From: Halarcobacter mediterraneus
GTDB taxonomy: Bacteria > Campylobacterota > Campylobacteria > Campylobacterales > Arcobacteraceae
Assembly: GCF_004116625.1 (NCBI RefSeq)
Contig: NZ_NXIE01000001.1
Span: forward strand, 1-64,000
DNA: 64,000 nt
Reading direction: 5' to 3'
Below are positions 43,558 through 59,190 of this stretch, piece after piece. The notes under the pieces are model-generated. The model was not told the DNA's origin. It was given only the letters and a program-made list of their open reading frames with translations, and made no database searches. Made by a program: the position numbers and the translations under genes. Positions within the stretch are counted from its first letter, which is position 1, and every line of letters starts with the position of its first letter.

Positions 43558-43573
43558 TAAACTCTCTTCTCTT

Positions 43574-43585
43574 ATGAATATTCAT
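43574..43585. promoter_or_regulatory. Palindromic operator ATGAATATTCAT at the tetR promoter
   Basis: A perfect 12-base palindrome lies just upstream of two overlapping TATAAT -10 elements (43600-43605 and 43608-43613), so it covers their -35 region. The same element recurs before both downstream hydrogenase operons, making this TetR-family regulator its probable ligand and suggesting autoregulation. Confidence 0.65.
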
Positions 43586-43642
43586 TTACTATTAACAAAT
43601 ATAATAATATAATAAAAACTACCATTTTAATTAAGGAAAGAC

Positions 43643-44233
43643 GTGTCGTCAAAAGAAGAAAAGAAAAATTCAATTATTGAAAATGCATTAAAACTTTTTT
43701 CTAAAAAAGGTTTTTATAATACAACAATACCTGATATTGCAAAAGCTATGAGTATGAGTGTTGGAAATATGTATAATTATTTTAAATCAAAAGAAGAACT
43801 TGCAAAATTTGCTATTAAGTATTCAACTAATATTTTGGCAACTGATTTGAAAAAAATAAATGAAATGGATGCATCTTCAAAAGAAAAAATATTTTTATTT
43901 ACTAAAAAATATTTAGAGAATGTTCAAAAATCTCCTGAAATTATTGAATATTTTTTAAGAGTATATTTATCAAATAGAGAAGTTTTTCAAGAAGGATGTG
44001 AAGGTTTTTTATGTGTAAGTGAATTTGTAACAGAAGTTATGATTTTACTTGATGAGGGAGCTGCTAAAAAAGAGTTTAGACAACAAGATTTCTTTCCTGC
44101 TTTTGCAATGATTATGGGAGCATTAGGTGGTTTTGCTTTTCTTTCTGGAGAGCAAGTTCTTGATAAAGATATAATAAGCTATTCAGATGATGTGGCAGAA
44201 AATATCTATAGAGCATTAAAGTATGAAAAATAA
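43643..44233 (+). CDS. TetR/AcrR-family transcriptional regulator of the hydrogenase island
   Basis: A 196-residue repressor-type regulator. The N-terminal helix-turn-helix reads SIIENALKLFSKKGFYNTTIPDIAKA, then MSMSVGNMYNYFKSKEELAKFA, typical of the family. The C-terminal half is the helical ligand/dimer domain and contains CEGFLC at about residues 111-116, which might sense redox or metals. The GTG start has AAGGAAAG upstream. Its last 11 bases overlap the start of the hydrogenase small-subunit gene, so the regulator and the sensory hydrogenase are made together. Matching palindromes lie before its own gene and both hydrogenase operons. Regulation of those operons is inferred. Confidence 0.88.
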   Translation: MSSKEEKKNSIIENALKLFSKKGFYNTTIPDIAKAMSMSVGNMYNYFKSKEELAKFAIKYSTNILATDLKKINEMDASSKEKIFLFTKKYLENVQKSPEIIEYFLRVYLSNREVFQEGCEGFLCVSEFVTEVMILLDEGAAKKEFRQQDFFPAFAMIMGALGGFAFLSGEQVLDKDIISYSDDVAENIYRALKYEK

Positions 44234-45125
44234 TGAAAGGAATAAACCAAAAATAGTTTGGCTTCAAGCTATAACTTGTAATGGAAATACTCACTCATTT
44301 TTAAGTGCAAATGTAAATAGATTAAAACTATTTTTAAATAGTTTTGATTTGATCTATCACCCTTCTTTAACTACTGATATTTTACTAGATGATTTACTAA
44401 AAAAAGATGAAGAAATTGATTTTTTACTTGTAGAGGGTGCAATAAGTTCAAATAAAGAGTTTTTTCAACTATCAAATCAAACTACAAATGAAATTTTAAA
44501 AAAGCTTGTTTTAAAGTCAAAATATTTAATAGCTGTTGGTTCTTGTGCTTCTTATGGTGGAGTACATAAAAAGTTTGAGCAAAACAATAATATTTTGGGT
44601 TTACAAGAAGCTTTATTTGAACATGATACTTCAACTTTAAAACATCCAATCGTTAATCTTACTGGTTGTCCTGTTCATCCAGAGTGGATATTTCAAACAC
44701 TATTTTCTCTTAAAGAATATAAGCAAATAGCTTTAGATGAAAAAGGAAGACCAAAAGAGATTTATTCTTATTTAGCCCATCACGGTTGTACAAGAAATGA
44801 GTATTTTGAGTGGAAAGTAGAAGCTAATTCTTTCGGATTAAAAGAAGGCTGTCTTTTTTACGAACAAGGTTGTCGTGGTCCAATGACTCACTCAAACTGT
44901 AATAAAATTCTTTGGAATGATGTAAATAGTAAAACAAGAGCAGGAATGCCCTGTATTGGCTGTACAGAGTTTGATTTTCCTAGAAATAATATGCTTGAAA
45001 CAAAAAAGAATATTGGTATTCCAGATGAAGTTCCTTTAGGTGTTAGTAAAAGAGCTTATTTATCTATTGCTGGAGTAGCTAAAACTTTTAAAATAGATAG
45101 ATTAAATGAAAAGATTATTAAATGA
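44223..45125 (+). CDS. hupU: Cytoplasmic (sensory-type) NiFe hydrogenase small subunit
   Basis: The 300 residues carry the Fe-S electron relay of a NiFe hydrogenase but lack a Tat signal and a membrane tail, so the protein stays in the cytoplasm. The proximal site reads AITCNGNTHSF (Cys19, Asn22), the C-x-x-N form I know from group 2 (HupS/HupU) enzymes, with GSCASYGG and TGCPVHPEW as the other ligands. Distal and medial ligands are AHHGCTRN, EGCLFYEQGCRGP, SNC and CIGC. It overlaps tetR by 11 bases and the large-subunit gene by four (ATGA). By context and the large-subunit features, it is best called HupU-like; a group 2 catalytic enzyme is the alternative. Confidence 0.85.
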   Translation: MKNNERNKPKIVWLQAITCNGNTHSFLSANVNRLKLFLNSFDLIYHPSLTTDILLDDLLKKDEEIDFLLVEGAISSNKEFFQLSNQTTNEILKKLVLKSKYLIAVGSCASYGGVHKKFEQNNNILGLQEALFEHDTSTLKHPIVNLTGCPVHPEWIFQTLFSLKEYKQIALDEKGRPKEIYSYLAHHGCTRNEYFEWKVEANSFGLKEGCLFYEQGCRGPMTHSNCNKILWNDVNSKTRAGMPCIGCTEFDFPRNNMLETKKNIGIPDEVPLGVSKRAYLSIAGVAKTFKIDRLNEKIIK

Positions 45126-46477
45126 AAACTGTAGATATAGTAGAAAGAATAGAAGGTGAAGCAAAACTTGTTTGCCAATGGAATAAAGAAAAAATATCTG
45201 ATGTAAAAATACAGTTTTTAAATTTTAGAGGCTTTGAGTTTATATTAAAAGATAAGCCTGCTCTAGATGCTTTAGTTTATACTCCAAGAATTTGTGGAAT
45301 TTGTGGACAAGCTCATTTGAAAGCTACAGTTGAAGCTTTAGAAAATATTTACAAAAATCATAATGAAGAACTAATTTTAACTAAAAAAGCAAAATTACTT
45401 AGAGAAATAGGTTTAAATATTGAGATTATAGATTCACATATAAAATGGTTTTATATGTTTATAATGCCTGATATAGTTAAATTTTCTCAAAATAATTTAG
45501 CAGAATATACACCTTTAAAAGGGAAAAAATGGTTAGAAGCCTCAATGATTGCTAGTGAAACTATTAAATCTTTAGCACTTATTGGAGGACAATGGCCTCA
45601 CACTTCTTATATGATACCTGGAGGAGTTATGAGTGATCCTACTTTATTAGATTTAATTTCTATGCAAAATTATATGGATCAAGCTATTATTTTTTTTGAA
45701 AATAGTTTAGTTGGTATTAAACTAGACAACTACCTTGATTTCAAAAAAAGTGAAGATTTATATAAAGTAAAAGGTGATTTAAAAGATTTTATAACAATCT
45801 CTTTTGAGAATGAATTTGAAAAAATTGGTAAATCCTATAATAGACATTTAGTTTTAGGTGATTCTTTATCTTTTGAAAAAGGAAAAATAAATAGAAAATT
45901 AACTAAAAATATTAGTTATGAAAATATTGAAGAACTAACATTAAATAGTTTTGATATTGATAAATCAAAAATATCAAAAGAAGCATATACTTGGTCAAAA
46001 ACTGCACTATATTCAAATAACTTTTATGAAACTGGTCCACTTTCTCGTGCAATAGTACAAAATAGAGATTTTGTAAATGATATTCATAGAAAATATAAAG
46101 ATTCAATGTTTACAAGAATTTTAGCACGAATGGATGAATTAGGTTTTTTACTTTTTAAAACAAAAGAGTTAATTAAACAAATAGATATAAATGAGGATTC
46201 TTTTATTAAACCAAAAGTTTCTCTTAGTGATTTTAAATATGGATTTGGACAAAGTGCAGTAGAAGCTTGTAGAGGTTCTTTATATCATGATATTGAAATT
46301 GAAAATGGAATTATTTCAAAATATGATGTGATTACACCCACTGTATGGAATCTAGGCCCAGGGATAGAAGATAAACTTTCAACTTCACAAAAAGCAATAA
46401 TAGGAACAGACTCTTTAGCAAAAGCAAAACTGATTTTACGAAGCTTTGATGTATGTTCTGTTTGTACAACTCACTAA
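45122..46477 (+). CDS. hupV: Cytoplasmic (sensory-type) NiFe hydrogenase large subunit
   Basis: The 451 residues hold the NiFe site: RICGICGQAH (Cys58, Cys61) and, at the very end, FDVCSVCTTH. The protein stops at that last His, so there is no C-terminal peptide to be cut by a maturation protease, as in HupV/HoxC sensors. Ile60 and Phe113 occupy the two gas-channel positions that are Val and Leu in ordinary enzymes (and in both large subunits downstream); this Ile/Phe pair is the known mark of O2-insensitive regulatory hydrogenases. It overlaps hupU by four bases. No kinase or NtrC-type regulator is nearby; tetR is the first gene of the operon. Confidence 0.87.
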   Translation: MKTVDIVERIEGEAKLVCQWNKEKISDVKIQFLNFRGFEFILKDKPALDALVYTPRICGICGQAHLKATVEALENIYKNHNEELILTKKAKLLREIGLNIEIIDSHIKWFYMFIMPDIVKFSQNNLAEYTPLKGKKWLEASMIASETIKSLALIGGQWPHTSYMIPGGVMSDPTLLDLISMQNYMDQAIIFFENSLVGIKLDNYLDFKKSEDLYKVKGDLKDFITISFENEFEKIGKSYNRHLVLGDSLSFEKGKINRKLTKNISYENIEELTLNSFDIDKSKISKEAYTWSKTALYSNNFYETGPLSRAIVQNRDFVNDIHRKYKDSMFTRILARMDELGFLLFKTKELIKQIDINEDSFIKPKVSLSDFKYGFGQSAVEACRGSLYHDIEIENGIISKYDVITPTVWNLGPGIEDKLSTSQKAIIGTDSLAKAKLILRSFDVCSVCTTH

Positions 46478-46503: not shown

Positions 46504-46580
46504 TAAAATATAAAAAAAGCTTTAATCTTTAATGGTCTTATGCATTTTTAGAACCAAATTTTCTCTATAGGCCCATATAA

Positions 46581-46592
46581 ATGAATATTCAT
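46581..46592. promoter_or_regulatory. Upstream operator ATGAATATTCAT of the first hydrogenase operon
   Basis: Identical to the palindrome at the tetR promoter. It lies 145 bases before hydA1, upstream of the best promoter candidate (TTGACA at 46649-46654 with TAATTT at 46671-46676). Confidence 0.65.
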
Positions 46593-46690
46593 TTTTTAGA
46601 TGCTATCTTAATGCTATCAATTTAATTGAGATTGTTATTTTTAATAATTTGACATTAAGTAATAAAAAGTTAATTTTCTTAAAGAAATAA

Positions 46691-46702
46691 ATGAGTATTC
46701 AT
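46691..46702. promoter_or_regulatory. Proximal operator ATGAGTATTCAT of the first hydrogenase operon
   Basis: One-base variant of the palindrome, 110 bases after the upstream copy and 23 bases before the hydA1 ATG. It would lie just downstream of the transcription start predicted from TTGACA/TAATTT, a repressing position. Confidence 0.6.
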
Positions 46703-46725
46703 TTAATAAATAAAAAGGAGAAAGG

Positions 46726-47964
46726 ATGGTTGATTCTCAAGAAATGGTTAAAAAAGTTTTTACCACAAATTCTGCAAGAATTAATACTAATAAAGGTGAT
46801 GCTTATTATAATTCGCTTTTTGAAAAAGCAAAAAGTAGATTAGCTGCATTAAGAAAGCAACCTGCACTTAAAGATATCGATTTAATGGAGGTTGTAGAAA
46901 GTGAAGGTGTAAATAGAAGAGACTTTATGAAGTGGGCAAGTGCAACAACTGCAACACTTATGTTACCTCCTATGTTTACTCCTTTAGTTGCCCAAGCAAC
47001 AGAACTTATGAATAGAGTTCCTGTTGTTTGGATTGAGTTACAAGACTGTGCTGGTAACTCAGAAGCTATTTTAAGGTCAGCTACTCCAACTGTAGATGAT
47101 TTACTTTTTGATGTACTATCTTTAGAGTATCATCATACATTACAAGCTGCTTCAGGTCATCAAGCTGAACATCAGTTAGAAGATGCAATTCATACTTTTA
47201 AAGGGAAATATTTACTATTTGTTGAAGGTGCAATTCCAAAAGCAATGAATGGACAATATGGAACAATTGGTCCTGGTGGTGAAACATTTGAAGATAATCT
47301 TAAAAGATTATCAAAAGATGCTGCTGCTGTAGTTGCCGTTGGTACATGTGCTACATTTGGAGGTATTCCAGCTGCTGCTCCAAATCCAACAGGTGCCGTT
47401 GGTGTTATGGATATTGTAAAAGGTAAGCCAATTATTAATATCCCTGCCTGTCCAGCAAATCCAGCTAATATGGTTGGTGTAGTTTTACATTATGTATTAA
47501 CAGGTCAAATTCCTGAGTTAGACTCATTATTAAGACCTAAATTTGCATTTGGGTATAGAATTCATGATAACTGTGAAAGAAGAGCACACTTTGATGCAGG
47601 TGAGTATGTAGAAGAGTGGGGTGATGATGGAGCTAAAAATAACTGGTGTCTATACAAAATGGGTTGTAAAGGACCAATGACATTTAACAATTGTTCTATT
47701 ATTAGATATAACGAAGGTGCAAACTGGCCTATTGGTGTTGGTCGTGGTTGTATTGGTTGTTCTGAACCAGATTTCTGGGATAAATATGCATATGAAAGAC
47801 CAATGGCAGATGCAAATATTAAAGCTCCTACTGGTGGAGTAGAAAAAACTGTAGATGAGTTCGGTCTAGGGCTATTAACAGCTACATCAATTGGTATTGG
47901 TGTACATGCCGTAGCAAGTGCAGTTGCAGGAAAAAGAACAGTTCATAGTGAAGATGAGGAATAA
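46726..47964 (+). CDS. hydA: Membrane-bound NiFe hydrogenase 1, small subunit (Asn at one proximal-cluster position)
   Basis: Periplasmic electron-transfer subunit, exported by Tat (NRRDFMKWASATTATL, Arg64-Arg65) and anchored by a C-terminal helix (FGLGLLTATSIGIGVHAVA). The 63 residues before the twin Arg are longer than usual, but the ATG has AAGGAG ahead. The proximal site reads DCAGNSEAILRS: Cys108 is present but the usual second Cys is Asn111; GTCATFGG and IPACPANP supply the other two. The sister gene at 52790 has the normal CTGCSE. Distal and medial ligands (HDNCERRAHFD, CLYKMGCKGP, NNC, GCIGC) are intact. First gene of hydABC. Confidence 0.93.
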   Translation: MVDSQEMVKKVFTTNSARINTNKGDAYYNSLFEKAKSRLAALRKQPALKDIDLMEVVESEGVNRRDFMKWASATTATLMLPPMFTPLVAQATELMNRVPVVWIELQDCAGNSEAILRSATPTVDDLLFDVLSLEYHHTLQAASGHQAEHQLEDAIHTFKGKYLLFVEGAIPKAMNGQYGTIGPGGETFEDNLKRLSKDAAAVVAVGTCATFGGIPAAAPNPTGAVGVMDIVKGKPIINIPACPANPANMVGVVLHYVLTGQIPELDSLLRPKFAFGYRIHDNCERRAHFDAGEYVEEWGDDGAKNNWCLYKMGCKGPMTFNNCSIIRYNEGANWPIGVGRGCIGCSEPDFWDKYAYERPMADANIKAPTGGVEKTVDEFGLGLLTATSIGIGVHAVASAVAGKRTVHSEDEE

Positions 47965-47967
47965 CAA

Positions 47968-49704
47968 ATGAGTAAACACGTAGTAATAGATCCAATAACA
48001 AGAATTGAAGGCCATCTTAGAATTGAAGCTGTAATTGATGATAATAATGTTATTCAAGAAGCTTATAGTTCTTCAACGATGTTCAGAGGTATTGAAGAAA
48101 TTTTAAAAGGTAGAGACCCAAGAGACTGTGGTCTTTTAGCTATGAGAATTTGTGGTGTATGCACAGGAACTCATTATCAAAGAAGTATTGAAGCAGTTGA
48201 ACATGCATTTAACGTAACTATTCCAAAAAATGCAAGACTTGTAAGAAACCTTATGCAAGGTGGATTATATATTCATGATCATATTGTTCACTTCTATCAT
48301 TTACATGCTCTTGACTGGGTAGATATTACAAAAGCTTTAGAAGCAGACCCAAAGAAAACTGTAGAAGAAGCACAAAAATGGGCTAAACTTTCAGGTCAAA
48401 GACCATGGAATGCAAGTGAAGATAATTATGCTGCAGTTCAAGAAAGAGTTACAAAGTATGTAAAACAAGGTAGACTTGGAATTTTTGGAAATGCATATTG
48501 GGGAAGTAAAGCATATAAATTAACTCCAGAGCAAAACCTAATTGGTCTTTCTCACTATTTAGATGCTTTAGAATTACAAAGAGAAGTAGCAAAAGCACAG
48601 GCTATTTTTGGTGGTAAAAACCCACACCCTCAATCAATTGTAGTTGGTGGAGTAACTTGTGTTCAAGATATCAAAAATCCAGTTAGAGTTGCAGAGTTTA
48701 AAGACATAATTCAAAAGGCTCTTAAATTTACAAAACAAGCATATTTACCTGATGTTTATATGGCTGGAACAATGTATGCTGATGAAGCACTTGAGGGTGT
48801 TGGTGGAGGACTAGGTAATTTTATGTCTTATGGTGATTTTAATTTAGATGATTTACCTTTTTATAATTCTGCTAAACTATTTCCATCAGGTATTGTTATG
48901 AATAAAGATTTATCAAAAGTTTATGAGTTGGACCAAACAAAAATCACAGAAGATGTAACTCATGCTTGGTATGAAGGAACAACAAACAAACACCCATATG
49001 ATGGTGTTACAGATCCTAAGTATACTGGATTTAGGGAGAAGAAAGATGGTATTGCCTATTTAGATACTGAAAATAAATATTCATGGATTAAATCTCCATT
49101 ATATGATGATGAAAGAATGGAAGTTGGTCCCTTAGCAAGAATGGTTGTTGCTGTAGCAAAAGGTGATGAGAGAATTTCCAAGTATGTAACTAAATTCTTA
49201 AAAAATGGAAACCTTCCAACAAAAGTTCTTTTCTCAACAGTAGGAAGAACAGCAGCAAGAGCTATAGAAACAGAATTGATGTGTGATGTCCTTATTGAGT
49301 GGTGTGATGAGTTAGCAGCTAATGTAGCAAGTGGTGATTTATCTACTTGGACTGAGTTTGATTTTGATAAAGTAGCAAAAGATGCTCAAGGGTTTGGTAT
49401 GGCAGAGGCTCCAAGGGGTAGTTTAGGTCACTGGGTTAAAATAAAAGATGGAAAAGTTATAAATTATCAAGCAGTTGTACCTTCAACTTGGAATGCAGCA
49501 CCAAAAGATTACAAAGGAAGATTAGGAGCTTATGAAGCTTCACTAGTTGGAACAAAAGTTGTTAATCCTGATGAGCCTTTAGAGATTATTAGAACAGTAC
49601 ATAGTTTTGACCCTTGTATTGCTTGTGCAGTTCATATAGTAGATACTAAAGGTAAAGAATTGGCAGTTTATAAAGTAGATCCTGTAGGAGGATGCCGTGC
49701 CTAA
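47968..49704 (+). CDS. hydB: Membrane-bound NiFe hydrogenase 1, large subunit
   Basis: Catalytic subunit of a periplasmic H2-uptake hydrogenase, carried out with HydA on its Tat signal. The 578 residues have DPITRIEGHLRIE, the N-terminal NiFe ligands RICGVCTGTHYQ, the gas-channel HFYHLHALDWVD (Leu), and the C-terminal ligands FDPCIACAVH. About 22 residues follow that His, so it has a C-terminal peptide for HydD to remove. It starts three bases after hydA and is followed by hydC with an eight-base overlap. Donates electrons to the quinone pool via HydC. Confidence 0.97.
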   Translation: MSKHVVIDPITRIEGHLRIEAVIDDNNVIQEAYSSSTMFRGIEEILKGRDPRDCGLLAMRICGVCTGTHYQRSIEAVEHAFNVTIPKNARLVRNLMQGGLYIHDHIVHFYHLHALDWVDITKALEADPKKTVEEAQKWAKLSGQRPWNASEDNYAAVQERVTKYVKQGRLGIFGNAYWGSKAYKLTPEQNLIGLSHYLDALELQREVAKAQAIFGGKNPHPQSIVVGGVTCVQDIKNPVRVAEFKDIIQKALKFTKQAYLPDVYMAGTMYADEALEGVGGGLGNFMSYGDFNLDDLPFYNSAKLFPSGIVMNKDLSKVYELDQTKITEDVTHAWYEGTTNKHPYDGVTDPKYTGFREKKDGIAYLDTENKYSWIKSPLYDDERMEVGPLARMVVAVAKGDERISKYVTKFLKNGNLPTKVLFSTVGRTAARAIETELMCDVLIEWCDELAANVASGDLSTWTEFDFDKVAKDAQGFGMAEAPRGSLGHWVKIKDGKVINYQAVVPSTWNAAPKDYKGRLGAYEASLVGTKVVNPDEPLEIIRTVHSFDPCIACAVHIVDTKGKELAVYKVDPVGGCRA

Positions 49705-50428
49705 AATGAAGCGGGTTGAAAGAATGACCCCAATCATGCGAATCATTCACTGGACGAATGCTATTTGTATGATTGTTGCGGTTGCAACCGGGCTATATAT
49801 CGGATATCCATATTATCAAACATTAATTGCTGACCCAGCAGTTGATAAATATGTGATGGCATGGAATAGATGGGGGCACTTCATTGCTGCAATTATCTTT
49901 GATGTTACAGCAATCTTAATTGGTTATTTATATCTTTTTTCTAGGTTTGAAAAACCTTATAAAAAGATTTTACCAACAAAGAAAAACTTTATAGAGTTTT
50001 GTGAAGTATTCTTTAATTTAATGACATTTAATAGAAGAAAAAGATTTGATTCAACACATAGTGATTCTTATAACATTATGTTCTTTACACTTTTTCATAT
50101 TCTATTAGTATTTATGTTATTAACAGGACTTCAGTTGTATGTTCATGGTTTAGCATCTGGAACTAGTTCAATTGGAGCTTGGTGGCCTTGGATGTTACAC
50201 TTTGCAACTGATTGGACTTTATATGTATTTGGTGGAAATATGGGAGTTAGAATTGCTCACCATACAGCTATGTATTTATTAATAATGTGGGTTATGTGTC
50301 ATATTTATTATCAGGTATGGAGAACAATCTTCTGGAGAGAAGGTGATATCAATATTGTATTTGGGGGAACAAAGTTTGTTAATAAAAATATTGTTAACTC
50401 AAAAGGTGAAATTGAAAAAAATGATTGA
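49697..50428 (+). CDS. hydC: Hydrogenase 1 cytochrome b subunit
   Basis: Di-haem membrane anchor that passes electrons from the Fe-S subunit to menaquinone. The 243 residues have four main helices with haem-ligand-type His: MRIIHWTNAICMIVAVATG, AWNRWGHFIAAIIF, FTLFHILLVFMLLTGLQLYVH and IAHHTAMYLLIMWVMCHIYYQ. I keep the GTG at 49697 because AGGAGG is five bases upstream, within the hydB coding end; an ATG nine bases on is possible. Two hairpins separate it from hydD. Confidence 0.92.
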   Translation: MPKMKRVERMTPIMRIIHWTNAICMIVAVATGLYIGYPYYQTLIADPAVDKYVMAWNRWGHFIAAIIFDVTAILIGYLYLFSRFEKPYKKILPTKKNFIEFCEVFFNLMTFNRRKRFDSTHSDSYNIMFFTLFHILLVFMLLTGLQLYVHGLASGTSSIGAWWPWMLHFATDWTLYVFGGNMGVRIAHHTAMYLLIMWVMCHIYYQVWRTIFWREGDINIVFGGTKFVNKNIVNSKGEIEKND

Positions 50429-50430
50429 TA

Positions 50431-50503
50431 TATCAAGGGTTATTTTAACCCTTGATAGTAAAAAACTTATTAAAACTATAAAATTAGCTTTAATAAGTTT
50501 TTT
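50431..50503 (+). promoter_or_regulatory. Two consecutive hairpins between hydC and hydD
   Basis: TATCAAGGGTT (50431-50441) pairs with AACCCTTGATA (50447-50457) around ATTTT. Right after it, AAAAAACTTATTAA (50460-50473) pairs with TTAATAAGTTTTTT (50490-50503). The first has no T-tract and looks like an mRNA 3'-end stabiliser; the second has terminator features. They would lower expression of hydD and hydE relative to hydABC. Confidence 0.6.
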
Positions 50504-50521
50504 AAATTAGTAGGAATATAT

Positions 50522-51097
50522 ATGAAGAATATTGTAGTTGGGGTTGGAAATGTTTTGTTTAAAGATGAGGGGGTAGGGATTTATGCTTCTAAATTTTTAC
50601 AACAAAACTATGAATTTAATGATGATTTAGAGATAATAGATGGTGGAACTTTAGGTTTTAAACTAATGACATATTTTCAAGAATATGACAATGTTATTAT
50701 TTTAGATACTGTTTCTGTTGAAGATGAAGCAGGATCTATTTATAGACTTCCGTCAGAGGTTTTACTTGGAATGGGACAATATAGAAAAACAGCCCATGAA
50801 GTTGAAATTGTAGAGATGTTAGAGATTTGTTCTGTTTTGGATAAACATGCTACAGTTACTATTTTAGGTATTATTCCTGAAGATATTGAAGCAGTTGAAA
50901 TAGGATTAACTTCTACTTTGGAAGATAAGTTTGATGATTTTATTTCTCAAGCTTTAGAAGAGATTGAGAATATTGGTGTAAAAGTAAAGAAAGTTGATAA
51001 TAAAGACTTAAAGATTATTGCACAAGAACTAATTGGAAGTTATAATGGTGAACATTTAACTAGAATTCCAAATGAGGAAGATACAACATGGAATTAA
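50522..51097 (+). CDS. hydD: Hydrogenase maturation endopeptidase (HyaD/HupD family)
   Basis: Cuts the C-terminal peptide from the large subunit once nickel is in place. The 191 residues show the nickel-sensing Glu in VGNVLFKDEGVGIYA, the Asp in VIILDTVSVEDEAG, and the His in KTAHEVEIVEML, the three family ligands. TAGGAATATAT precedes the start. It overlaps hydE by ten bases. A second, separate protease at 56341 serves the other hydrogenase, in line with the substrate specificity of such enzymes. Confidence 0.93.
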   Translation: MKNIVVGVGNVLFKDEGVGIYASKFLQQNYEFNDDLEIIDGGTLGFKLMTYFQEYDNVIILDTVSVEDEAGSIYRLPSEVLLGMGQYRKTAHEVEIVEMLEICSVLDKHATVTILGIIPEDIEAVEIGLTSTLEDKFDDFISQALEEIENIGVKVKKVDNKDLKIIAQELIGSYNGEHLTRIPNEEDTTWN

Positions 51098-52623
51098 TTT
51101 ATAAAATAGATTTTAATACAACAAACTTTTATTTTAAGCATATCATTGATGATTTAATAGAAGATACAAAAATTAAAGCTACATGTAAAATGTATAGGGG
51201 TTTTATTCTTTTAGTTTGTTCTGATGAAGTAGAGGAAATAGAAAACTTTTTTAAGGTACTTGAAGAAAAACTTCCTTTATCAATATTTATTTCAAATGCA
51301 GAAGTTTTAGAACACTTTGATTATGATTCATTTTTTGAACTAGAAGAACAGGATGTAAAGTTAAATCTTTCACTTCTTACAAATGATGAAATTACGAAAA
51401 CTATAAATGAAAATAATATTGACTTTACAAATGATATTGATAAGATAAAAAAAGGTGGGGTATCAAGATTTGAAACTCACAATGGCTTAAAAGATTTATT
51501 TTTGCCATCTGTAAAATTAAGAGAAGAGTTTGAATCAAAAGGTTATGAAGTAAAACTTTTAATTACAAATATAAATAATATCTCAAAACTAGTAGATATT
51601 ACACAAAAAGATTTACAACTTTTATGCTCAATAGAAAGGCCTCTTATAAAATTAAAATTTAAACTTTTACAAAATGCAAAAGGAGAGTTTTCAAATACTA
51701 GATTTATTTATGCCAAAATTGCAGATGATAAAGAAACTTTACTTTTTTCAAAAGCTTTAAAAGACAAAGGTTTTGATTATATACTATATGTCAATGATGA
51801 GGTTTACCAAGATGGCTTAAAAGTTACATATAATAAAGAACAAAATATTATAATTTGTGGAGAAAAGGGATTATTCCCTAAATATGATTTTGATTTAAAA
51901 AGAAGAGTTAATTCAAGTAAAGACTATTTTGAGGAGTATGGATCTGTTTATAAAGCATGTATTGCACAATTTAATAAAAGGTTAGTTTCTACTATTGGAG
52001 TATATTTTTCATATAAAAGTGATGAATCAGCTATTAAAATAAATAATGCAAAATTAGGAGAGAGAAATATAGTTTTTATTCCAAATGTTTTAAATAATAT
52101 AGAAAAGTGCATTGATGATATTAGAAGTATAGATGAAAATACCAATAGATTAATTGACAATTATAAAAAAAGCTTTCCAAAATATTTTGAAAAAAAGTTT
52201 ATAGATAAAGATGCAGATGGTTTTGAAGCTATTTTAAATATGCTTGCATACTGTTTAGGAATGAAAGATTATAAACAGTTTGAAGATACAGCTTTAATGT
52301 TTGGTGGTAAAAGTGGACTTCAAATTGATATGAAAGTTATGCAAATAGATGGAAAGAACTATTTAGATTATAGAAAAATTATCCAAAGTACTTTAAGTTA
52401 TAAGATTGCGGGAGTAGAGGATACATTATTAGCATACTCTTTTTATGAATCATTGTGTGATTTTATTTCAGATAATGTTACAGAAATTCAAAGTGATTTT
52501 AATGCAAAAGATATTATTCTTTGTGGTGATATGTTTGCTAACTCAATTTTACTTTCTAAACTAAAGAAAAAGCTAAATACTATTAATATACTTATTCCAA
52601 AAGAATACCCTATAGATTACTAA
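51088..52623 (+). CDS. hydE: HydE hydrogenase accessory protein (HypF C-terminal-like)
   Basis: The 511-residue product matches the position and size of HydE in the hydABCDE operons of Wolinella and Helicobacter, where it is needed for hydrogenase activity in Helicobacter pylori. Its C-terminal ~150 residues resemble the Kae1-like end of HypF: IILCGDMFANSILLSKLKKKL here aligns with LVLSGGVFQNKTLIDLVCKKL in the hypF of this window. The catalytic zinc-finger and acylphosphatase parts are absent. The exact biochemical role is not known. No copy accompanies the second hydrogenase. Confidence 0.8.
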   Translation: MELIYKIDFNTTNFYFKHIIDDLIEDTKIKATCKMYRGFILLVCSDEVEEIENFFKVLEEKLPLSIFISNAEVLEHFDYDSFFELEEQDVKLNLSLLTNDEITKTINENNIDFTNDIDKIKKGGVSRFETHNGLKDLFLPSVKLREEFESKGYEVKLLITNINNISKLVDITQKDLQLLCSIERPLIKLKFKLLQNAKGEFSNTRFIYAKIADDKETLLFSKALKDKGFDYILYVNDEVYQDGLKVTYNKEQNIIICGEKGLFPKYDFDLKRRVNSSKDYFEEYGSVYKACIAQFNKRLVSTIGVYFSYKSDESAIKINNAKLGERNIVFIPNVLNNIEKCIDDIRSIDENTNRLIDNYKKSFPKYFEKKFIDKDADGFEAILNMLAYCLGMKDYKQFEDTALMFGGKSGLQIDMKVMQIDGKNYLDYRKIIQSTLSYKIAGVEDTLLAYSFYESLCDFISDNVTEIQSDFNAKDIILCGDMFANSILLSKLKKKLNTINILIPKEYPIDY

Positions 52624-52671: not shown

Positions 52672-52679
52672 CTAAAAAA

Positions 52680-52695
52680 ATGAATAATCATTCAT
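52680..52695. promoter_or_regulatory. Upstream operator ATGAATAATCATTCAT of the second hydrogenase operon
   Basis: The same ATGAAT/ATTCAT half-sites as before, now separated by AATC. Lies about 50-66 bases upstream of the start predicted from TATAAA at 52734-52739. Confidence 0.62.
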
Positions 52696-52756
52696 ATTTT
52701 TGATTATGGTCAAGAAACTTTAACTTTTAATAGTATAAAATTTCATTAAATATAAA

Positions 52757-52772
52757 ATGAATAATCATTCAT
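52757..52772. promoter_or_regulatory. Proximal operator ATGAATAATCATTCAT of the second hydrogenase operon
   Basis: Exact second copy of the 16-base element, 77 bases after the first and 17 bases before the TTG start of hydA2, overlapping the expected 5' leader. Both hydrogenase operons thus have one site upstream and one directly before the ribosome site. Confidence 0.62.
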
Positions 52773-52789: not shown

Positions 52790-53950
52790 TTGCAAGAGCA
52801 AATACTATATGAAAAATTAAATAAAAGATTAAATGATTTAGAAAAACTTCCTAGACTTAAAGAAAATAAATCTATAGAGAGTCACTTAGATGAAAAGGGT
52901 GTTTCAAGAAGAGATTTTATGAAGTGGGCTACAGCAATTACTGTAATGCTTGCACTTCCAGGTTCTTTTACACCATTAGTTGCAAAGGCTGCAAAATTAA
53001 GTGATAGACTTCCTATTATCTGGTTACACATGGCTGAGTGTACTGGATGTAGTGAATCACTTTTGAGAACTGATGCTCCTACAATTGACTCCTTAATTTT
53101 TGATTATATTTCTTTAGAGTATCACGAAACCTTAATGGCAGCAGCAGGATGGCAAGCTGAGCATAATTTAGAACATGCAATTGAGGCTTATAAAGGGCAA
53201 TATATTTTAATGGTTGAAGGTGGAATTCCATCAGGAAATAGTGCACATTATTTAACTATTGGAGGTCATGGGCATACTGGTGAACATTCTGCACAACTTG
53301 CATCAAAAAATGCAGCAGCAATATTTGCTATTGGCACATGTTCTTCTTTTGGAGGGGTTCAAGCAGCAATTCCAAATCCTACAGGAGCAGTTGCTTTATC
53401 AAAAGTTACAAATAAACCAGTTATAAATGTACCAGGTTGTCCTCCAAGTGAAAAAAATATTGTAGGAACTTTATTACACTATATTCTTTATGGAACACTT
53501 CCTGCCCTTGATGCCTACAATAGACCAAAATGGGCTTATGGAAGAAGAGTACATGATTTATGTGAAAGAAGAGGTCACTTTGATGCTGGAGAATTTGTAG
53601 AAGAGTTTGGAGATGAAGGTGCTAAAAAAGGTTATTGTTTATACAAAGTAGGGTGTAAAGGACCTTATACTTTTAATAACTGTTCAAAAAATAAATTTAA
53701 CTCACATATGTCTTGGCCTATTCAAGCAGGTCATGGGTGTATTGGGTGTTCTGAACCAGATTTTTGGGATACGATGGGACCATTTGAAGAACCGGTTGCA
53801 AATAGATTGTATAGCACAGTATTTAAAGGTCTTGGAGCTGATGCAACAGCAGATAAAATTGGTGTTGGATTATTAACAGCTACAGGTATTGGTATTGCAG
53901 CACATGCAGCTATTTCTAAATTTAAAAATCCAAAAGATGGTGAGGAGTAA
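52790..53950 (+). CDS. hydA: Membrane-bound NiFe hydrogenase 2, small subunit
   Basis: Tat-exported electron-transfer subunit (SRRDFMKWATAITVML, Arg40-Arg41) of 386 residues with a C-terminal anchor helix (KIGVGLLTATGIGIAAHAA). The proximal site is the standard HMAECTGCSESLLRT, with GTCSSFGG and VPGCPPSE. The distal and medial ligands are VHDLCERRGHFD, YCLYKVGCKGP, NNC and GCIGC. TTG start, supported by AAGGA six bases upstream; the ATG inside that site runs into a stop. It resembles the small subunit at 46726 closely except for the proximal cluster. First gene of hydABCD-hypF. Confidence 0.95.
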   Translation: MQEQILYEKLNKRLNDLEKLPRLKENKSIESHLDEKGVSRRDFMKWATAITVMLALPGSFTPLVAKAAKLSDRLPIIWLHMAECTGCSESLLRTDAPTIDSLIFDYISLEYHETLMAAAGWQAEHNLEHAIEAYKGQYILMVEGGIPSGNSAHYLTIGGHGHTGEHSAQLASKNAAAIFAIGTCSSFGGVQAAIPNPTGAVALSKVTNKPVINVPGCPPSEKNIVGTLLHYILYGTLPALDAYNRPKWAYGRRVHDLCERRGHFDAGEFVEEFGDEGAKKGYCLYKVGCKGPYTFNNCSKNKFNSHMSWPIQAGHGCIGCSEPDFWDTMGPFEEPVANRLYSTVFKGLGADATADKIGVGLLTATGIGIAAHAAISKFKNPKDGEE

Positions 53951-53953
53951 AAT

Positions 53954-55684
53954 ATGGCAAATAAAAGAGTAGTAGTAGACCCAATTACAAGGATTGAAGG
54001 ACACTTAAGAATTGAGGTTGAAGTTGATGAAAACAATGTTATTCAAAATGCTTACTCTACATCAACACTTTGGAGAGGTTTAGAAACTATTGTTAAAAAT
54101 AGAGACCCAAGAGATGCAGGTTTCTTAATGCAAAGAATTTGTGGTGTTTGTACTTTTTCTCACTATAGAGCAGGGATTGAAGCTGTTGAAGATGCACTTG
54201 GTATTGTTCCTCCTTTAAATGCAAAATTAACTAGGTCTTTAATGAATATGGCTTTATTTATGCATGACCATGTTGTTCACTTTTATCATTTGCATGGTCT
54301 TGATTGGGTTGATGTTGTTTCAGCACTTGATGCAGACCCTGCAAAAGCTTCTAAAGAGGCATTTAAATATGCAGAATTACCAATTGCTACTGGTGAAAAT
54401 GACTTAAAAAAAGTTAAAAAAAGAGTAAAAGAGTTTGTTGATAAAGGACAATTAGGGCCTTTTGCAAATGCTTATTGGGGACATAAAACTTATAGATTAA
54501 CTCCTGAGCAAAACTTAATTTTATTGTCTCACTATTTAAAAGCTTTAGAAGTACAAAGAGATTTAGCAAAACTTATGGCTATGTTTGGTGGTAAACAACC
54601 ACACCCTCAAAGTTTAACTGTTGGTGGTGTAACTTGTGTAATGGACTTAATGGACCCAAGTAGAATGGGTGAGTACTTAACTTTATTTAAAGTTGGTTCA
54701 GAATTTATTGAAAATGCCTACCAAGCTGATGTTATTATGGCAGCAAAAATGTATAAAGATGAAGCATCTGTAACAGAACAAGCTGGTGTTATGAACTTTA
54801 TGTCTCATCAAGAGATGCAATTAAATAAAACAGAGTTTTTATTTGATACTGGTATTATTGAAAATGGAGATTTATCAAAGGTATTTGATATTAATGAAGA
54901 TTTAATCACTGAAGAAGCAACTCACTCTTGGTATGCTGATAATGAAGCTTTGCATCCATATAATGGTAAAACAAACCCTAATTATACTGGATTTAAAGAT
55001 ATGGATACAGTAGGTCCTGATGGAAAAATGATTCACTCTAAAGTAATCGATGAAAATGGTAAATACTCTTGGATTAAATCACCAAGATATGATGGTAAAC
55101 CAATGGAAGTTGGTCCACTAGCTTGTATTTTAATTTCTTATGCAAAAGGAAATGAAAAAATTGTTCCTCTTGTAGATGATTTCTTAGCTAAAACAGGACT
55201 TCCAAAAGCAGCGTTATTTACAACTTTAGGAAGAACAGCAGCTAGAATGATTCAAGTAAGAGCAATTGCTAAACATGGATTAGAGGCATTTAATACATTA
55301 ATTGAGAACTTAAAAGTTGACCAAGACACCTTTACTTCATATAAAATTGACAAAGATAAAGAGTATAGAGGAAGATTTATTGGGGATGTTCCAAGGGGTA
55401 TGCTTTCTCACTGGATTAGAATTAAAAATGCAGTTGTAGAAAACTATCAAGCAGTTGTTCCGTCAACTTGGAATGCAGGGCCAATTGATTCATTAGGACA
55501 AATAGGACCTTATGAAGCAAATTTAGTGGGACTAAAAGTTCAAGACTTAACTCAACCTTTAGAGATTATTAGAGTTATTCACTCTTTTGACCCTTGTATT
55601 GCTTGTGCAGTTCATGTAATGGATAAAAAAGGTAATGATTTAGGTACATACAAGGTAGATCCATTTTATGGACTATCTTGTTAA
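53954..55684 (+). CDS. hydB: Membrane-bound NiFe hydrogenase 2, large subunit
   Basis: Catalytic subunit of the second periplasmic hydrogenase; 576 residues. VDPITRIEGHLRIEVE, the N-terminal NiFe ligands RICGVCTFSHYRAG, gas-channel HFYHLHGLDWVD (Leu), and the C-terminal FDPCIACAVH followed by a removable tail are all present. It starts three bases after hydA2 and is followed after nine bases by the cytochrome gene. It is clearly paralogous with hydB1, though the middle of the chain (about 270-350) differs and carries an insert (VGPDGKMIHSKVI). Confidence 0.97.
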   Translation: MANKRVVVDPITRIEGHLRIEVEVDENNVIQNAYSTSTLWRGLETIVKNRDPRDAGFLMQRICGVCTFSHYRAGIEAVEDALGIVPPLNAKLTRSLMNMALFMHDHVVHFYHLHGLDWVDVVSALDADPAKASKEAFKYAELPIATGENDLKKVKKRVKEFVDKGQLGPFANAYWGHKTYRLTPEQNLILLSHYLKALEVQRDLAKLMAMFGGKQPHPQSLTVGGVTCVMDLMDPSRMGEYLTLFKVGSEFIENAYQADVIMAAKMYKDEASVTEQAGVMNFMSHQEMQLNKTEFLFDTGIIENGDLSKVFDINEDLITEEATHSWYADNEALHPYNGKTNPNYTGFKDMDTVGPDGKMIHSKVIDENGKYSWIKSPRYDGKPMEVGPLACILISYAKGNEKIVPLVDDFLAKTGLPKAALFTTLGRTAARMIQVRAIAKHGLEAFNTLIENLKVDQDTFTSYKIDKDKEYRGRFIGDVPRGMLSHWIRIKNAVVENYQAVVPSTWNAGPIDSLGQIGPYEANLVGLKVQDLTQPLEIIRVIHSFDPCIACAVHVMDKKGNDLGTYKVDPFYGLSC

Positions 55685-55693
55685 GGAGCAGTC

Positions 55694-56359
55694 ATGATTA
55701 AAAAACATTATGAGTTTTCATTTTGGGTTAGAATCACTCACTGGGTAAGAGCTATAGCTATTGTAGTTCTTACTTTTACTGGGTTTTATCTTGCAGTTCC
55801 TTTTATAGCTCCTGCACTTAATCAAGGAGAACCAAATAACTATTTATATGCTTTAATGAGATCATGGCATATTATTTTTGGATTTCTTTTAATTGCAGTT
55901 ACAATTGGAAAGTTTTATTTATTTATTTTTGATAAACAAAGTAAGATAGAAAGAGTCTCTTTTTTGGATTTTATTAATCCAAAAGTATGGGTAAAACAAA
56001 TTAAATATTATCTATTAATTGGAAAACATGCAAGACTAAAAGGAGTATATAATCCTTTACAGTTTGTTGCATATTTAGGTGTTTATATCACACTTATCGT
56101 AATATGTATTACAGGTTTAGTTTTACATATGCATGTTTATCATGAAGGGTTAGGGGGATTTTTATATGAGTTTTTAAGACCTTTAGAAGTTATGATGGGT
56201 TCTCTTGCAATGGTTAGAGAAATTCATCATATAGCTATGTGGTTTTTTATTGTATTTTTACCAATTCATATTTATCTTGCTATATTTAACTCTGTTTATG
56301 GAAAAAGTGGAGCAATGGATTCTATTGTTTCTGGATATAAATGGGAAGAAGAACATTAA
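55694..56359 (+). CDS. hydC: Hydrogenase 2 cytochrome b subunit
   Basis: A 221-residue membrane anchor with four helices and His at haem positions: RITHWVRAIAIVVLTFTG, RSWHIIFGFLLIAV, ICITGLVLHMHVYHEG and IHHIAMWFFIVFLPIHIYL. It should transfer electrons to menaquinone. GGAGCAGTC precedes the ATG. Its 3' end overlaps the following protease gene by 19 bases, a tighter arrangement than in the first operon, where hairpins separate the two. Confidence 0.92.
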   Translation: MIKKHYEFSFWVRITHWVRAIAIVVLTFTGFYLAVPFIAPALNQGEPNNYLYALMRSWHIIFGFLLIAVTIGKFYLFIFDKQSKIERVSFLDFINPKVWVKQIKYYLLIGKHARLKGVYNPLQFVAYLGVYITLIVICITGLVLHMHVYHEGLGGFLYEFLRPLEVMMGSLAMVREIHHIAMWFFIVFLPIHIYLAIFNSVYGKSGAMDSIVSGYKWEEEH

Positions 56360-56919
56360 TGAATGTATTAATATTAGGAATAGGGAACATATTGTTTCAA
56401 GATGAAGGAATAGGGGCTCATTTTATTCATTATTTAGATGAAAAATATGAATTTGAGGCTAAAGATTCTACTGTTAGCATTGTAGATGGTGGAACATTAG
56501 CTCAAAGACTTATTCCTCTTATAGTAAAGTATGATGAGCTTATTGTAGTTGACTGTATTGATGCAGATGATTCAATGCCTGGTGATGTTTATTTTTTTGA
56601 TTATCACAAAGCCCCTTCAAATATCAATTGGCAAGGAAGTGCCCATGAAGTAGAGATGCTTCAAACACTAAATATGATTGATATGAATAAAGATTTACCT
56701 CAAACGAATGTATTAGGAGTTATTCCCAAAAGAGTAGCTGATGATACTACCTTTGAATTAAGTAAAGAGATAATTAGTGCTGTCAAGCTAATGGAGGAAG
56801 TGGTAGTTAAATATCTTAATAAATTAGATATTCAAACTAAAATAAAAAATGAAACAACAATAGAACATATTGCTCAAGTTTCTTTTAAAAGAGATATTAT
56901 AAATGGTCCTAAAATTTAA
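56341..56919 (+). CDS. hydD: Hydrogenase maturation endopeptidase 2
   Basis: A 192-residue HyaD/HupD-type protease with LGIGNILFQDEGIGAHF (Glu ligand), LIVVDCIDADDSMPGD (Asp) and GSAHEVEMLQTL (His). It begins inside hydC2 (ATG at 56341, MGRRTLMNVLIL); the ATG at 56359 is the more usual start, as family members open directly with the VLILGIGN strand, but I cannot exclude the earlier one. It probably matures only the adjacent large subunit. Confidence 0.9.
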   Translation: MGRRTLMNVLILGIGNILFQDEGIGAHFIHYLDEKYEFEAKDSTVSIVDGGTLAQRLIPLIVKYDELIVVDCIDADDSMPGDVYFFDYHKAPSNINWQGSAHEVEMLQTLNMIDMNKDLPQTNVLGVIPKRVADDTTFELSKEIISAVKLMEEVVVKYLNKLDIQTKIKNETTIEHIAQVSFKRDIINGPKI

Positions 56920-56961: not shown

Positions 56962-59190
56962 ATGCTAACATATAAAATTAGAGTAAAAGGTATTGTTCAA
57001 GGAGTTGGATTTAGACCTTTTATTTTTAATTTAGCCTTAAAATACTCTATAAATGGTTGGGTAAATAATGATGAAAAAGGAGTAAATATTCTTATTTTTT
57101 CATCAAAAGAAAATACAGAAAATTTCATAAGAGAATTAGAAGAAAAACCACCACCCTTATCAAAAATAGACTCTATTGAAATAGAGGAATTAAACTCAAC
57201 AAAAATTTATACAAAATTTGAAATTAAAAAAAGTAAAATAAATAATAATAAATCAACAATTATAAGTCCAGATATAGCAGTTTGCCAAGATTGTATTGAT
57301 GATATAAATGATGAATCAAATTTTAGAGAAAATTATGCTTTAACAAACTGCACTAACTGTGGACCAAGATACTCTATAATTAAAACAGTTCCTTATGATA
57401 GATGTAATACTTCAATGGCAGAATTTACTCTTTGTGAAGCTTGTGAAAAAGAGTATAAAGAGCCTACTAATAGAAGATATCATGCTCAACCTATTGCATG
57501 TGAAAAATGTGGCCCAGAAGTTAGCCTTTATGATGGGAATAATAAAAAAATCTTTTCCTCTTTAGAAGCTATAAAAGAAGTAGCAAAATTAATTAATTCT
57601 GGAAAAATAATAGCTATCAAAGGACTTGGAGGTTTTCATTTAGTTTGTGATGGAACAAATGAGGAGTCTGTTAAAAACTTAAGACAAAGAAAAAATAGAC
57701 CTGAAAAACCTTTTGCCGTTATGTTTAAAAGTATTGAAGAAATAAAAGAACATACCTTTTTGTCAGAAAAAGAGGAAGAACTTTTAAACTCAAAAGAGAA
57801 ACCTATAGTTCTAGTTAGAAAGAAAAATAAAAGTGGACTTTCAAATAGTGTAGCACCAAATATTGATAGATTAGGGTGCTTTATTGCTTATACTCCTTTG
57901 CATTATATACTTTTTAGATATTTAAATAATCCAATAGTTGCAACAAGTGCAAATCTAAAAGATGAGCCAATCATAAGATTTAAAGATGAAATATTAAAAA
58001 AACTTGCAGATGTAGTAGATTTTGTATTGGATTTTAATAGAGATATAGTAAATGCTTGTGATGACTCTGTTGTTCAAGTTGTAAATGATGATATTAGTAA
58101 ACTTAGAAATGCAAGGGGTTATGCCCCAACTTCTTTAAAATTAGAAAAAAAAGTTTCTAAAAAAATATTAGCCCTTGGAGCAAATCAAAAGTCAACTATT
58201 GCTTTAGCTTTTGAAGATAATCTTATTTTATCACCTCATATTGGGGATTTAAACTCAATTGAGTCAATGGAATATTTTAAACGAACTATTGAAACTTTTA
58301 AAAACTTTTATGACTTTGAACCTGATGTAATAGTTTGTGATAAACATCCAAATTATGAAAATACTAAATGGGCAAAAACTTTAAATAAAGAGCTTGTTTT
58401 TGTACAACACCATTATGCTCATATTTTATCAACAATGGCAGAATATAAACTAAAAGAAAAAGTACTTGGTTTTGCTTTTGATGGAACTGGATATGGAGAT
58501 GATGGAAACATTTGGGGTGGGGAAGTTTTTATTTGTAATAATAAAAGCTATGAAAGAGCTTATCATCTAAAATATTTTAAACTTTTAGGTGGTGAGAAAG
58601 CAGTAAAAGAACCTAAAAGGGTTGCTTTATCTTTATTATTTGAAGAGTTTACATTAGAGGAAGTTTTATCTTTAGAAAGTTCTGTTGTTAAACAGTTTAG
58701 TAAGAAAGAAATCAAGATGCTTCATATGGCTTGGGTAAAAGGTTTAAATTCTCCACTTACAAGCTCTATGGGAAGATTATTTGATGCAATTGCTTCTTTA
58801 TCTAATCTTGTTCATATTCAAAGTTATGAAGGACAAACGGGACTTGCAATCGAGCAAAATTATGATAAAACTATTGTTGAGAATTTTGATTTTGAAGTTA
58901 TTAATAATCAAATTGATTTATCTCCTATGATAAATCAAATATTAAAAGAGAAAGAGATAAAAGTTATTTGCTCGAAATTCATAAATACTTTAGTAGAAAT
59001 AATTCTTTATATAAGTAAAGACTACGAAAAATTACCATTAGTTCTTAGTGGGGGAGTTTTTCAGAATAAAACTTTAATAGACCTAGTTTGTAAAAAATTA
59101 AAGGAAATGAAACGAAAATATTTTTATTCTAAACAAATACCTTTGAATGATGGAGGAATTTCAATTGGTCAAATCTATTATATAAGTTAA
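56962..59190 (+). CDS. hypF: Carbamoyltransferase HypF
   Basis: Makes the thiocarbamoyl precursor of the active-site cyanide ligands for all NiFe hydrogenases. The 742 residues run acylphosphatase domain (GIVQGVGFRPFIFNLA, about 1-90), HypF zinc fingers (CQDCIDD, CTNCGPRYS, CEACEKEY, CEKCGPE), a YrdC-like domain (IIAIKGLGGFHLVCDG), and a Kae1-like domain (FVQHHYAHILSTMAE, FAFDGTGYGDDGNIWGGE, LSGGVFQNK). It lies 42 bases after the second protease gene. Other hyp genes are not in the window. Serves both hydrogenases and, presumably, the sensory one. Confidence 0.96.
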   Translation: MLTYKIRVKGIVQGVGFRPFIFNLALKYSINGWVNNDEKGVNILIFSSKENTENFIRELEEKPPPLSKIDSIEIEELNSTKIYTKFEIKKSKINNNKSTIISPDIAVCQDCIDDINDESNFRENYALTNCTNCGPRYSIIKTVPYDRCNTSMAEFTLCEACEKEYKEPTNRRYHAQPIACEKCGPEVSLYDGNNKKIFSSLEAIKEVAKLINSGKIIAIKGLGGFHLVCDGTNEESVKNLRQRKNRPEKPFAVMFKSIEEIKEHTFLSEKEEELLNSKEKPIVLVRKKNKSGLSNSVAPNIDRLGCFIAYTPLHYILFRYLNNPIVATSANLKDEPIIRFKDEILKKLADVVDFVLDFNRDIVNACDDSVVQVVNDDISKLRNARGYAPTSLKLEKKVSKKILALGANQKSTIALAFEDNLILSPHIGDLNSIESMEYFKRTIETFKNFYDFEPDVIVCDKHPNYENTKWAKTLNKELVFVQHHYAHILSTMAEYKLKEKVLGFAFDGTGYGDDGNIWGGEVFICNNKSYERAYHLKYFKLLGGEKAVKEPKRVALSLLFEEFTLEEVLSLESSVVKQFSKKEIKMLHMAWVKGLNSPLTSSMGRLFDAIASLSNLVHIQSYEGQTGLAIEQNYDKTIVENFDFEVINNQIDLSPMINQILKEKEIKVICSKFINTLVEIILYISKDYEKLPLVLSGGVFQNKTLIDLVCKKLKEMKRKYFYSKQIPLNDGGISIGQIYYIS

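Follow-up and report, generated by a model that had tools for sequence, protein, structure and literature searches.

A TetR-family regulator joined to a cytosolic NiFe hydrogenase: a probable H2-responsive switch of hydrogenase genes in Campylobacterota

Introduction

The regulatory NiFe hydrogenases HupUV and HoxBC signal the presence of H2 through HoxJ, a histidine kinase with a PAS domain, and HoxA, an activator of the NtrC type. Here, we analysed a locus with a different partner in Halarcobacter mediterraneus (assembly GCF_004116625.1, contig NZ_NXIE01000001.1, positions 1 to 64,000; this whole stretch of 64,000 nucleotides is called the window). In the window, a gene for a TetR-family regulator (tetR) is followed directly by the genes for the small (hupU) and large (hupV) subunits of a cytosolic NiFe hydrogenase. 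An earlier note on this DNA had proposed that the TetR protein takes the place of the kinase and the activator in a possibly new H2-sensing circuit. Our comparison of multiple genomes suggests that the trio acts as a one-component switch responsive to H2, in which TetR would repress the hydrogenase regulon and HupUV would relieve this repression under H2. We give this reading a probability of roughly 0.65.

The published record assigns several roles to the cytosolic enzyme. In Campylobacterota it was placed in group 2d, the Aquifex-like NiFe hydrogenases, and proposed as a source of reductant for the reductive tricarboxylic acid (TCA) cycle (PMC5401914). A review of Sulfurimonas from 2015 (PMC4584964) treats its role as speculative and mentions sensing, reverse electron transport and ferredoxin cycling as proposals; it also reports from Han and Perner (2014) that a soluble uptake activity was not found in S. 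denitrificans and that the transcript of the large subunit was seen. The Nautilia genome paper labels the enzyme as H2-sensing on phylogenetic grounds and goes on to suggest roles with ferredoxin (PMC2628731), hupSL is listed as an uptake hydrogenase in Arcobacter (PMC4584990, PMC2147049), and according to a later genome paper the role of the cytosolic hydrogenase still needs study (PMC7952632). The gene order described here was, as far as the description goes, already reported for Sulfurospirillum multivorans by Kruse 2017 (PMC5357620), where a TetR-like repressor lies directly upstream of hupSL (SMUL_1421-1422) with hydB (SMUL_1424) close behind. These authors suggested that TetR may repress hupSL itself and took hydB as unregulated, and the accessible text describes no operator. 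The TetR neighbour is therefore not wholly new in print, while the circuit may be: our literature search, which covered the field in part and left subscription papers mostly outside, returned neither a TetR-HupUV circuit nor such an operator.

Conservation of the tetR-hupU-hupV trio

The three genes of the window are the following:

43643..44233, + strand: tetR, predicted TetR-family repressor, 196 amino acids, GTG start, with C119 and C124 (ORF list, Pfam)
44223..45125, + strand: hupU, small subunit of a cytosolic NiFe hydrogenase, 300 amino acids, twin-arginine translocation (Tat) signal not found (ORF list, Pfam)
45122..46477, + strand: hupV, NiFe-hydrogenase large subunit, 451 amino acids, four Ni-binding cysteines kept, C-terminus CSVCTTH without extension

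Above the Pfam cut-offs, TetR matches TetR_N, HupU matches Oxidored_q6 and NiFe_hyd_SSU_C, and HupV matches NiFeSe_Hases. The overlaps of 11 bases between tetR and hupU and of four bases between hupU and hupV, as well as the motif CEGFLC in TetR (residues 119-124), had been described before and agree with our coordinates. HupU starts shortly before its Fe-S domain and has neither a TAT_signal match nor the long N-terminus of HydS1, the small subunit encoded by the first membrane-hydrogenase operon downstream, which carries a Tat-like signal with a score just below the Pfam cut-off. HupV lacks the C-terminal extension that is present in HydL1 of the same window, and its four Ni-binding cysteines are retained in 60 of 60 aligned sequences of the family Arcobacteraceae.

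The trio recurs far beyond the window. In 104 genomes of the family, representing 20 genera, close relatives of HupU (E-value below 1e-50) were found in 65 genomes and close relatives of TetR in 67, and all 65 genomes with HupU carry both. Only two family genomes have TetR alone; in one of them (G049) a partial hupU is cut off by the end of the contig, and in the other (G073) tetR lies beside hypF. A further genome (G095), with a hupU fragment (residues 226-299, 1.3e-39) and no tetR match, falls outside the 65. Across 397 genomes of the phylum, each of the two proteins matches in 115 and 113 genomes have both, with tetR alone in G239 and G298. TetR accompanies 112 of the 113 strong hupU matches (E-value below 1e-70; two weaker ones in G295 and G418, probably another hydrogenase, are outside this number), and the sole strong match without it (G379) begins at model position 40, perhaps at a contig edge.

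Outside the family, we compared 82 loci, namely 80 stretches (78 genomes, chosen from about 85 tetR loci, plus two paralogue loci) and two plasmid records. In 77 of them, tetR, hupU and hupV lie in this order on the same strand, with hydS downstream in 69 of the 77. A scan of named genomes with HupV gave a similar picture: among the best 80 of 582 loci, 72 have an adjacent tetR, two have it in a position not scored as adjacent, in four it would fall past a contig edge, and two lack it; at these last two, other genes precede hupV and hupU was not found. The titles of these best 80 of 582 matches name Campylobacterota or no taxon. The survey of gene order that had been suggested for this phylum returned the trio in many genomes, with TetR in 65 of 65 family genomes with hupU and the order kept at 77 of 82 other loci. 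Because it recurs across the phylum, the order is not due to chance, and these data support that TetR and HupUV form one unit. Overlap of tetR and hupU, as judged from predicted start codons, is usual and not universal (51 of 65 loci in the family, 50 of 77 outside it); at three family loci, 57 to 68 bases separate the two genes.

We also observed several variants of the locus. The block of tetR, hupU, hupV and hyd genes is present on plasmids of Sulfurimonas paralvinellae (L157, with an integrase gene alongside) and Sulfurovum mangrovi (L158); L157 and L197, both of 49,811 bases, look like one plasmid and both were counted. One genus (g19) has two versions of the cassette (L109, L110 and L111 against L077, L081, L086 and L089), with HupU about 50% versus 71-74% and TetR 52-54% versus 79-81% identical to the proteins of the window, and the cassette looks as if it had been swapped as a block. 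At 25 of 66 family tetR loci (L054, L059-L061, L064-L082, L086, L089) there is no ATG, GTG or TTG near the start and an in-frame ATT or ATA occurs there, which may serve as a rare start codon that keeps the repressor scarce; in L094, a TTG is present together with an in-frame stop. Six loci (L050, L051, L052, L055, L056, L062) have an antisense frame of 216-250 codons between hupU and hupV, with a GDCEDFV motif that appears transglutaminase-like by eye. Moreover, hupU of L052 (G059) contains an in-frame TAG with tetR, hupV and the operator described below kept, a possible natural knock-out of the sensor.

A conserved palindrome at the hydrogenase promoters

Our pattern search revealed five palindromes in the window, absent from the earlier note, which we regard as predicted operators (no strand assigned):

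43573..43586: TATGAATATTCATT, upstream of tetR
46580..46593: AATGAATATTCATT, perfect palindrome, distal copy, first hyd operon
46690..46703: AATGAGTATTCATT, proximal copy, first hyd operon, begins 36 bases 5' of hydS1
52679..52692: AATGAATAATCATT, distal copy, second hyd operon
52756..52769: AATGAATAATCATT, proximal copy, second hyd operon, begins 34 bases 5' of hydS2

An alignment of 99 selected sites gave the longer palindrome TAAATGAAYATTCATTTA. The exact sequence AATGARTAWTCATT matches only four times in the 2.83 Mb genome, each time at one of the two hyd promoters. Among seven sites with one mismatch whose surroundings were inspected (L010 to L016), one at contig position 66818 lies 16 bases 5' of hypB and was not part of the motif definition. 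The palindrome is even-centred, which would suit a TetR dimer, and the site at 43573 points to a probable autoregulation of tetR. A conserved palindrome near the regulator's own or target genes, as sought for a TetR-family operator, is thus present, with binding of TetR as a prediction.

The distribution of the palindrome follows that of tetR. Counting at least 12 of 14 matching positions as a site and using shuffled sequences for the expectation, we found a site before 54 of 56 hydS1 genes (1.35 expected) and 26 of 28 hydS2 genes (0.85 expected) in the tetR genomes of the family, before 64 of 72 hyd genes in the other tetR genomes (0.6 expected; L226, with an empty upstream stretch, scored as a miss) and before 63 of 75 hyd genes at the named-genome loci. 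At the same cut-off, no site precedes hydS in genomes without tetR, neither in 11 of the same family nor in 30 of other families (0 of 41 in total); one of the 11 (G018) is only 54% complete, and one of the 30 (L249) has only 145 bases upstream. Two tetR genomes split over contigs (L124 and L125, in each of which a site reaches 12 or more matches) and one genome with a different hydrogenase and no site (L126) were left out of the 56 and the 11. The hypB gene shows the same contrast, with an upstream site in 7 of 20 tetR genomes versus 0 of 10 without tetR, or 13 of 20 versus 0 of 10 at 11 of 14 positions.

The position of the palindrome indicates how it could act. In the family, its 3' end lies at a median of 22 bases from the start codon of hydS1 (53 of 54 within 40 bases) and 24 bases from that of hydS2 (17 of 26); elsewhere the median is 29 bases (46 of 64). 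A site within 40 bases leaves no room for a promoter, so a protein bound there would sit on or after the transcription start, the place of a repressor. From distribution and position, we conclude that the palindrome very probably serves TetR to control the genes of the membrane hydrogenases and the hyp genes, and that repression is its likely mode of action.

The TetR protein and its cysteines

The match of TetR to TetR_N scores 53.7 bits, and its AlphaFold model (nine helices; mean predicted local distance difference test, pLDDT, 90.4) places TetR-family folds at the top of the structure list. Five residues of the recognition-helix region (S39, G41, Y44, N45, Y46) are identical in all 151 TetRs compared, paralogues included, of which 144 adjoin hupUV and seven do not. 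C119, in the loop before helix 123-141 (block mean pLDDT 69), and C124, at the start of this helix (block mean 86), are present in all 144 adjoining proteins. Four of the seven others (L112, L238, L239 and one L223 paralogue) lack C119, C124, T130, M133 and M158 together, and still retain 33 to 36 of 44 otherwise invariant positions. The remaining three keep the cysteines, and two of these (L176, L229) are encoded at hydrogenase operons. This pattern suggests that the five residues mark the hydrogenase-linked regulator. Among the routes considered earlier (direct contact, redox change or a metabolite), the invariant cysteine pair somewhat favours contact or redox; that the signal is passed through C119 and C124 themselves is a tentative idea and rather doubtful.

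Among the closest folds is another member of the TetR family, FadR of Bacillus subtilis (template modelling score 0.80, about 21% identity in the fold alignment). Our TetR is not classified as FadR, scoring 45.5 bits with the NCBIfam model NF053878 against a curated cut-off of 200. The FadR operator, which we take to be TGAATGANTANTCATTCA, would have the same core as the palindrome; the literature search gave no paper confirming that operator.

Comparison with known H2-sensing systems

For comparison we used a Cupriavidus necator record (L159) that gives products only and whose genes we take to be the Hox genes. Like HupUV/HoxBC (group 2b), the trio comprises a cytosolic NiFe pair with active-site cysteines beside hydrogenase genes and a regulator. 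As in HoxBC, the small subunit has no Tat signal, and neither large subunit has a C-terminal extension, HoxC ending in CMVCTVH and HupV in CSVCTTH. However, HupV is only 27% identical to HoxC and HupU 33% identical to HoxB. The closest solved structures of both subunits are 7utd and 7uur, listed as Hydrogenase-2, presumably the respiratory enzyme Huc of Mycobacterium (group 2a), with the proximal motif CSGN against CNGN. Two possible hallmarks of a sensor were dropped. The bulky gas-channel residues I62 and F110 of HoxC correspond to I60 and F113 in HupV of the window, but the second position varies, with a different residue in the three sequences of other families that were aligned. The CxGN proximal motif was abandoned because HydS1 has CAGN and L215 has CNGC.

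The two systems differ in their output. No kinase or NtrC-type gene is found in the ORF lists between 36000 and 64000, in line with the earlier note. A genome-wide search with HoxA returned 38 matches, none of them past query residue 159 of 482 and thus all in the N-terminal receiver part, and no AAA+ match, which argues that the genome has no HoxA-type activator. The corresponding search with HoxJ gave 52 matches (58 bits at best), most of which fall in the C-terminal kinase part, and no clear HoxJ; one longer match (55 bits, 26% identity, residues 39-435 of 447) lies in an 845-amino-acid frame on another contig. Control by a HoxJ/HoxA pair encoded elsewhere in the genome, raised before as a competing explanation, is therefore not borne out. 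In its proposed working the trio resembles the HupUV/HoxBC circuits, but it does not belong to them, since our search showed the activator half to be absent and gave no clear kinase half. Its output partner is instead a TetR of the one-component type, and control appears to be negative rather than positive. The idea that TetR replaces the kinase and activator is supported in part: a shared operator connects TetR with the promoters of the uptake hydrogenases and of hyp, and HoxA is missing, while H2 as the signal and a link between HupUV and TetR are its presumptive parts. For Arcobacter butzleri, the genome paper reports neither RpoN nor NtrC/NtrB in its accessible text (PMC2147049), which would leave a HoxA-type circuit inoperative in this species.

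Proposed mechanism and alternative explanations

In the proposed switch, TetR dimers would bind TAAATGAAYATTCATTTA at the promoters of both membrane-hydrogenase operons, of hypBCD and of tetR-hupUV, as the conservation of the palindrome strongly suggests, and bound TetR would block transcription, as expected from the position of the sites. HupUV, with its active site kept, would then bind H2 and signal to TetR, which would leave the DNA. Such signalling is suggested by the invariant pairing, by the nature of the target genes and by the lack of another obvious partner. Accordingly graded, HupUV is probably the H2 sensor of TetR, and H2 is the likely signal. As a guess consistent with the conservation, the most likely route would be a direct contact that changes the region of C119 and C124, by reduction or by conformational coupling. 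A more specific version, in which HupUV is an H2-driven TetR reductase that passes electrons from H2 through the Fe-S chain of HupU to a C119-C124 disulfide, is unlikely; H2 would in that case switch a one-component repressor by direct electron transfer, with no kinase, second messenger or sigma-54.

The trio is conserved in many H2-consuming relatives of Campylobacter, where it probably reports H2 and switches on the enzymes that oxidize it. A TetR partner with a defined operator makes the speculative role of the cytosolic group 2 hydrogenase directly answerable. If the switch operates as proposed, it would add a one-component route of H2 sensing suited to organisms without RpoN and NtrC, such as A. 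butzleri, and provide a simple H2-responsive promoter part.

Several observations count against the proposed switch. Kruse 2017 found that H2 changed the hydB level of S. multivorans about twofold, which was not significant (p 0.224), and detected almost no hupL transcript; the authors inferred a constitutive expression of hydB, for which they offered the lack of an H2 sensor as one possible cause (PMC5357620). For that organism at least, these data are the chief counter-evidence in print to an H2 control by the module. Two loci (L176, L229) have tetR, both cysteines and an operator at a hydrogenase operon, and hupUV is not beside them; TetR there either dispenses with hupUV or has another input, and these loci are natural cases for what TetR does alone. 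With up to one mismatch, the palindrome matches 42 times in the genome versus 29 times for the reversed control pattern, so the weaker sites are mostly background and prove little. The looser cut-off of 11 of 14 also yields sites in genomes without tetR (3 of 11 in the family and 6 of 30 elsewhere, with 6.2 expected from shuffling for the 30), a background level, and alone does not discriminate. For 9 of 26 family hydS2 genes and 18 of 64 others, more than 40 bases separate the start codon from the closest site; with these remaining sites at 43 to 117 bases, control there may differ. Before tetR itself, a site was found in 18 of 67 family loci (1.6 expected) and 5 of 82 elsewhere and went undetected in most loci. 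Finally, the operator counts share descent and are not independent, and the contrast within the family is the stronger part of them.

The alternative that survives best is that TetR regulates the regulon but senses a small molecule or the general redox state by itself, with HupUV as a catalytic group 2d enzyme, for example one feeding ferredoxin, and a mere member of the regulon. The fold likeness to B. subtilis FadR, which was solved with stearoyl-CoA, would fit, as would the two genomes that keep tetR and the operator with hupUV not beside them, the operator of tetR-hupUV itself in the window and the lack of significant H2 induction in S. multivorans. Ferredoxin or reverse-electron roles have also been proposed (PMC5401914, PMC2628731, PMC4584964). 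However, a supply of reductant to the reductive TCA cycle does not explain HupUV in most hupU genomes of the family: a strong match to ATP citrate lyase (PF16114), a marker of this cycle, was found in 9 of 65 hupU genomes and is missing in 56, including that of the window, in contrast to TetR, which is present in all 65. No family genome with a close hupU lacks tetR (the weaker match in G095 being a fragment), HupV resembles HoxC in having no C-terminal extension, and S. denitrificans reportedly showed no soluble uptake activity despite the transcript (PMC4584964). Taken together, we consider a self-sensing TetR unlikely, although it is the most serious competitor of the H2-responsive switch.

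It is very improbable that the palindrome belongs to another regulator with the same distribution as tetR-hupUV and that the gene order reflects inherited synteny with no functional meaning. Shared descent of related genomes would allow for it, but TetR is the regulator whose gene adjoins these promoters, the site disappears together with TetR within one family (none of 11 hydS promoters of relatives without tetR has it), the cassette also occurs on Sulfurimonas and Sulfurovum plasmids, and the even centre suits a TetR dimer. That TetR represses only its own downstream hupUV, following the reading of Kruse 2017, agrees with the gene overlap and the operator before tetR but is hardly credible, as the operator precedes hydS (54 of 56, 64 of 72) far more often than it precedes tetR (18 of 67, 5 of 82) and also occurs at hypB (7 of 20).

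Neighbouring hydrogenase operons

The genes downstream of the trio are arranged as follows:

46726..52623, + strand: first membrane-hydrogenase operon, with hydS1, hydL1, hydC1, a maturation protease and a HypF-C-like protein
52790..56919, + strand: second membrane-hydrogenase operon, with hydS2, hydL2, hydC2 and a protease
56962-59190: hypF-like gene after the second hyd operon

The names of hydC2, the protease of the second operon and hypF were given by eye from the sequence and not by a family search. The hypB gene, followed by hypC and hypD, lies beyond the end of the window, with its upstream site at a distance of 2.8 kb from that end. Upstream of hydS1, a second inverted repeat, TAAG..CTTA, was observed 70-88 bases before the gene at twelve loci (L047, L048, L051, L052, L054-L057, L060, L063, L077, L088). 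At any distance it occurs before 14 of 56 hydS1 genes, compared to 3.4 in shuffled sequences, and is absent from the window itself; this repeat is perhaps the site of another regulator.

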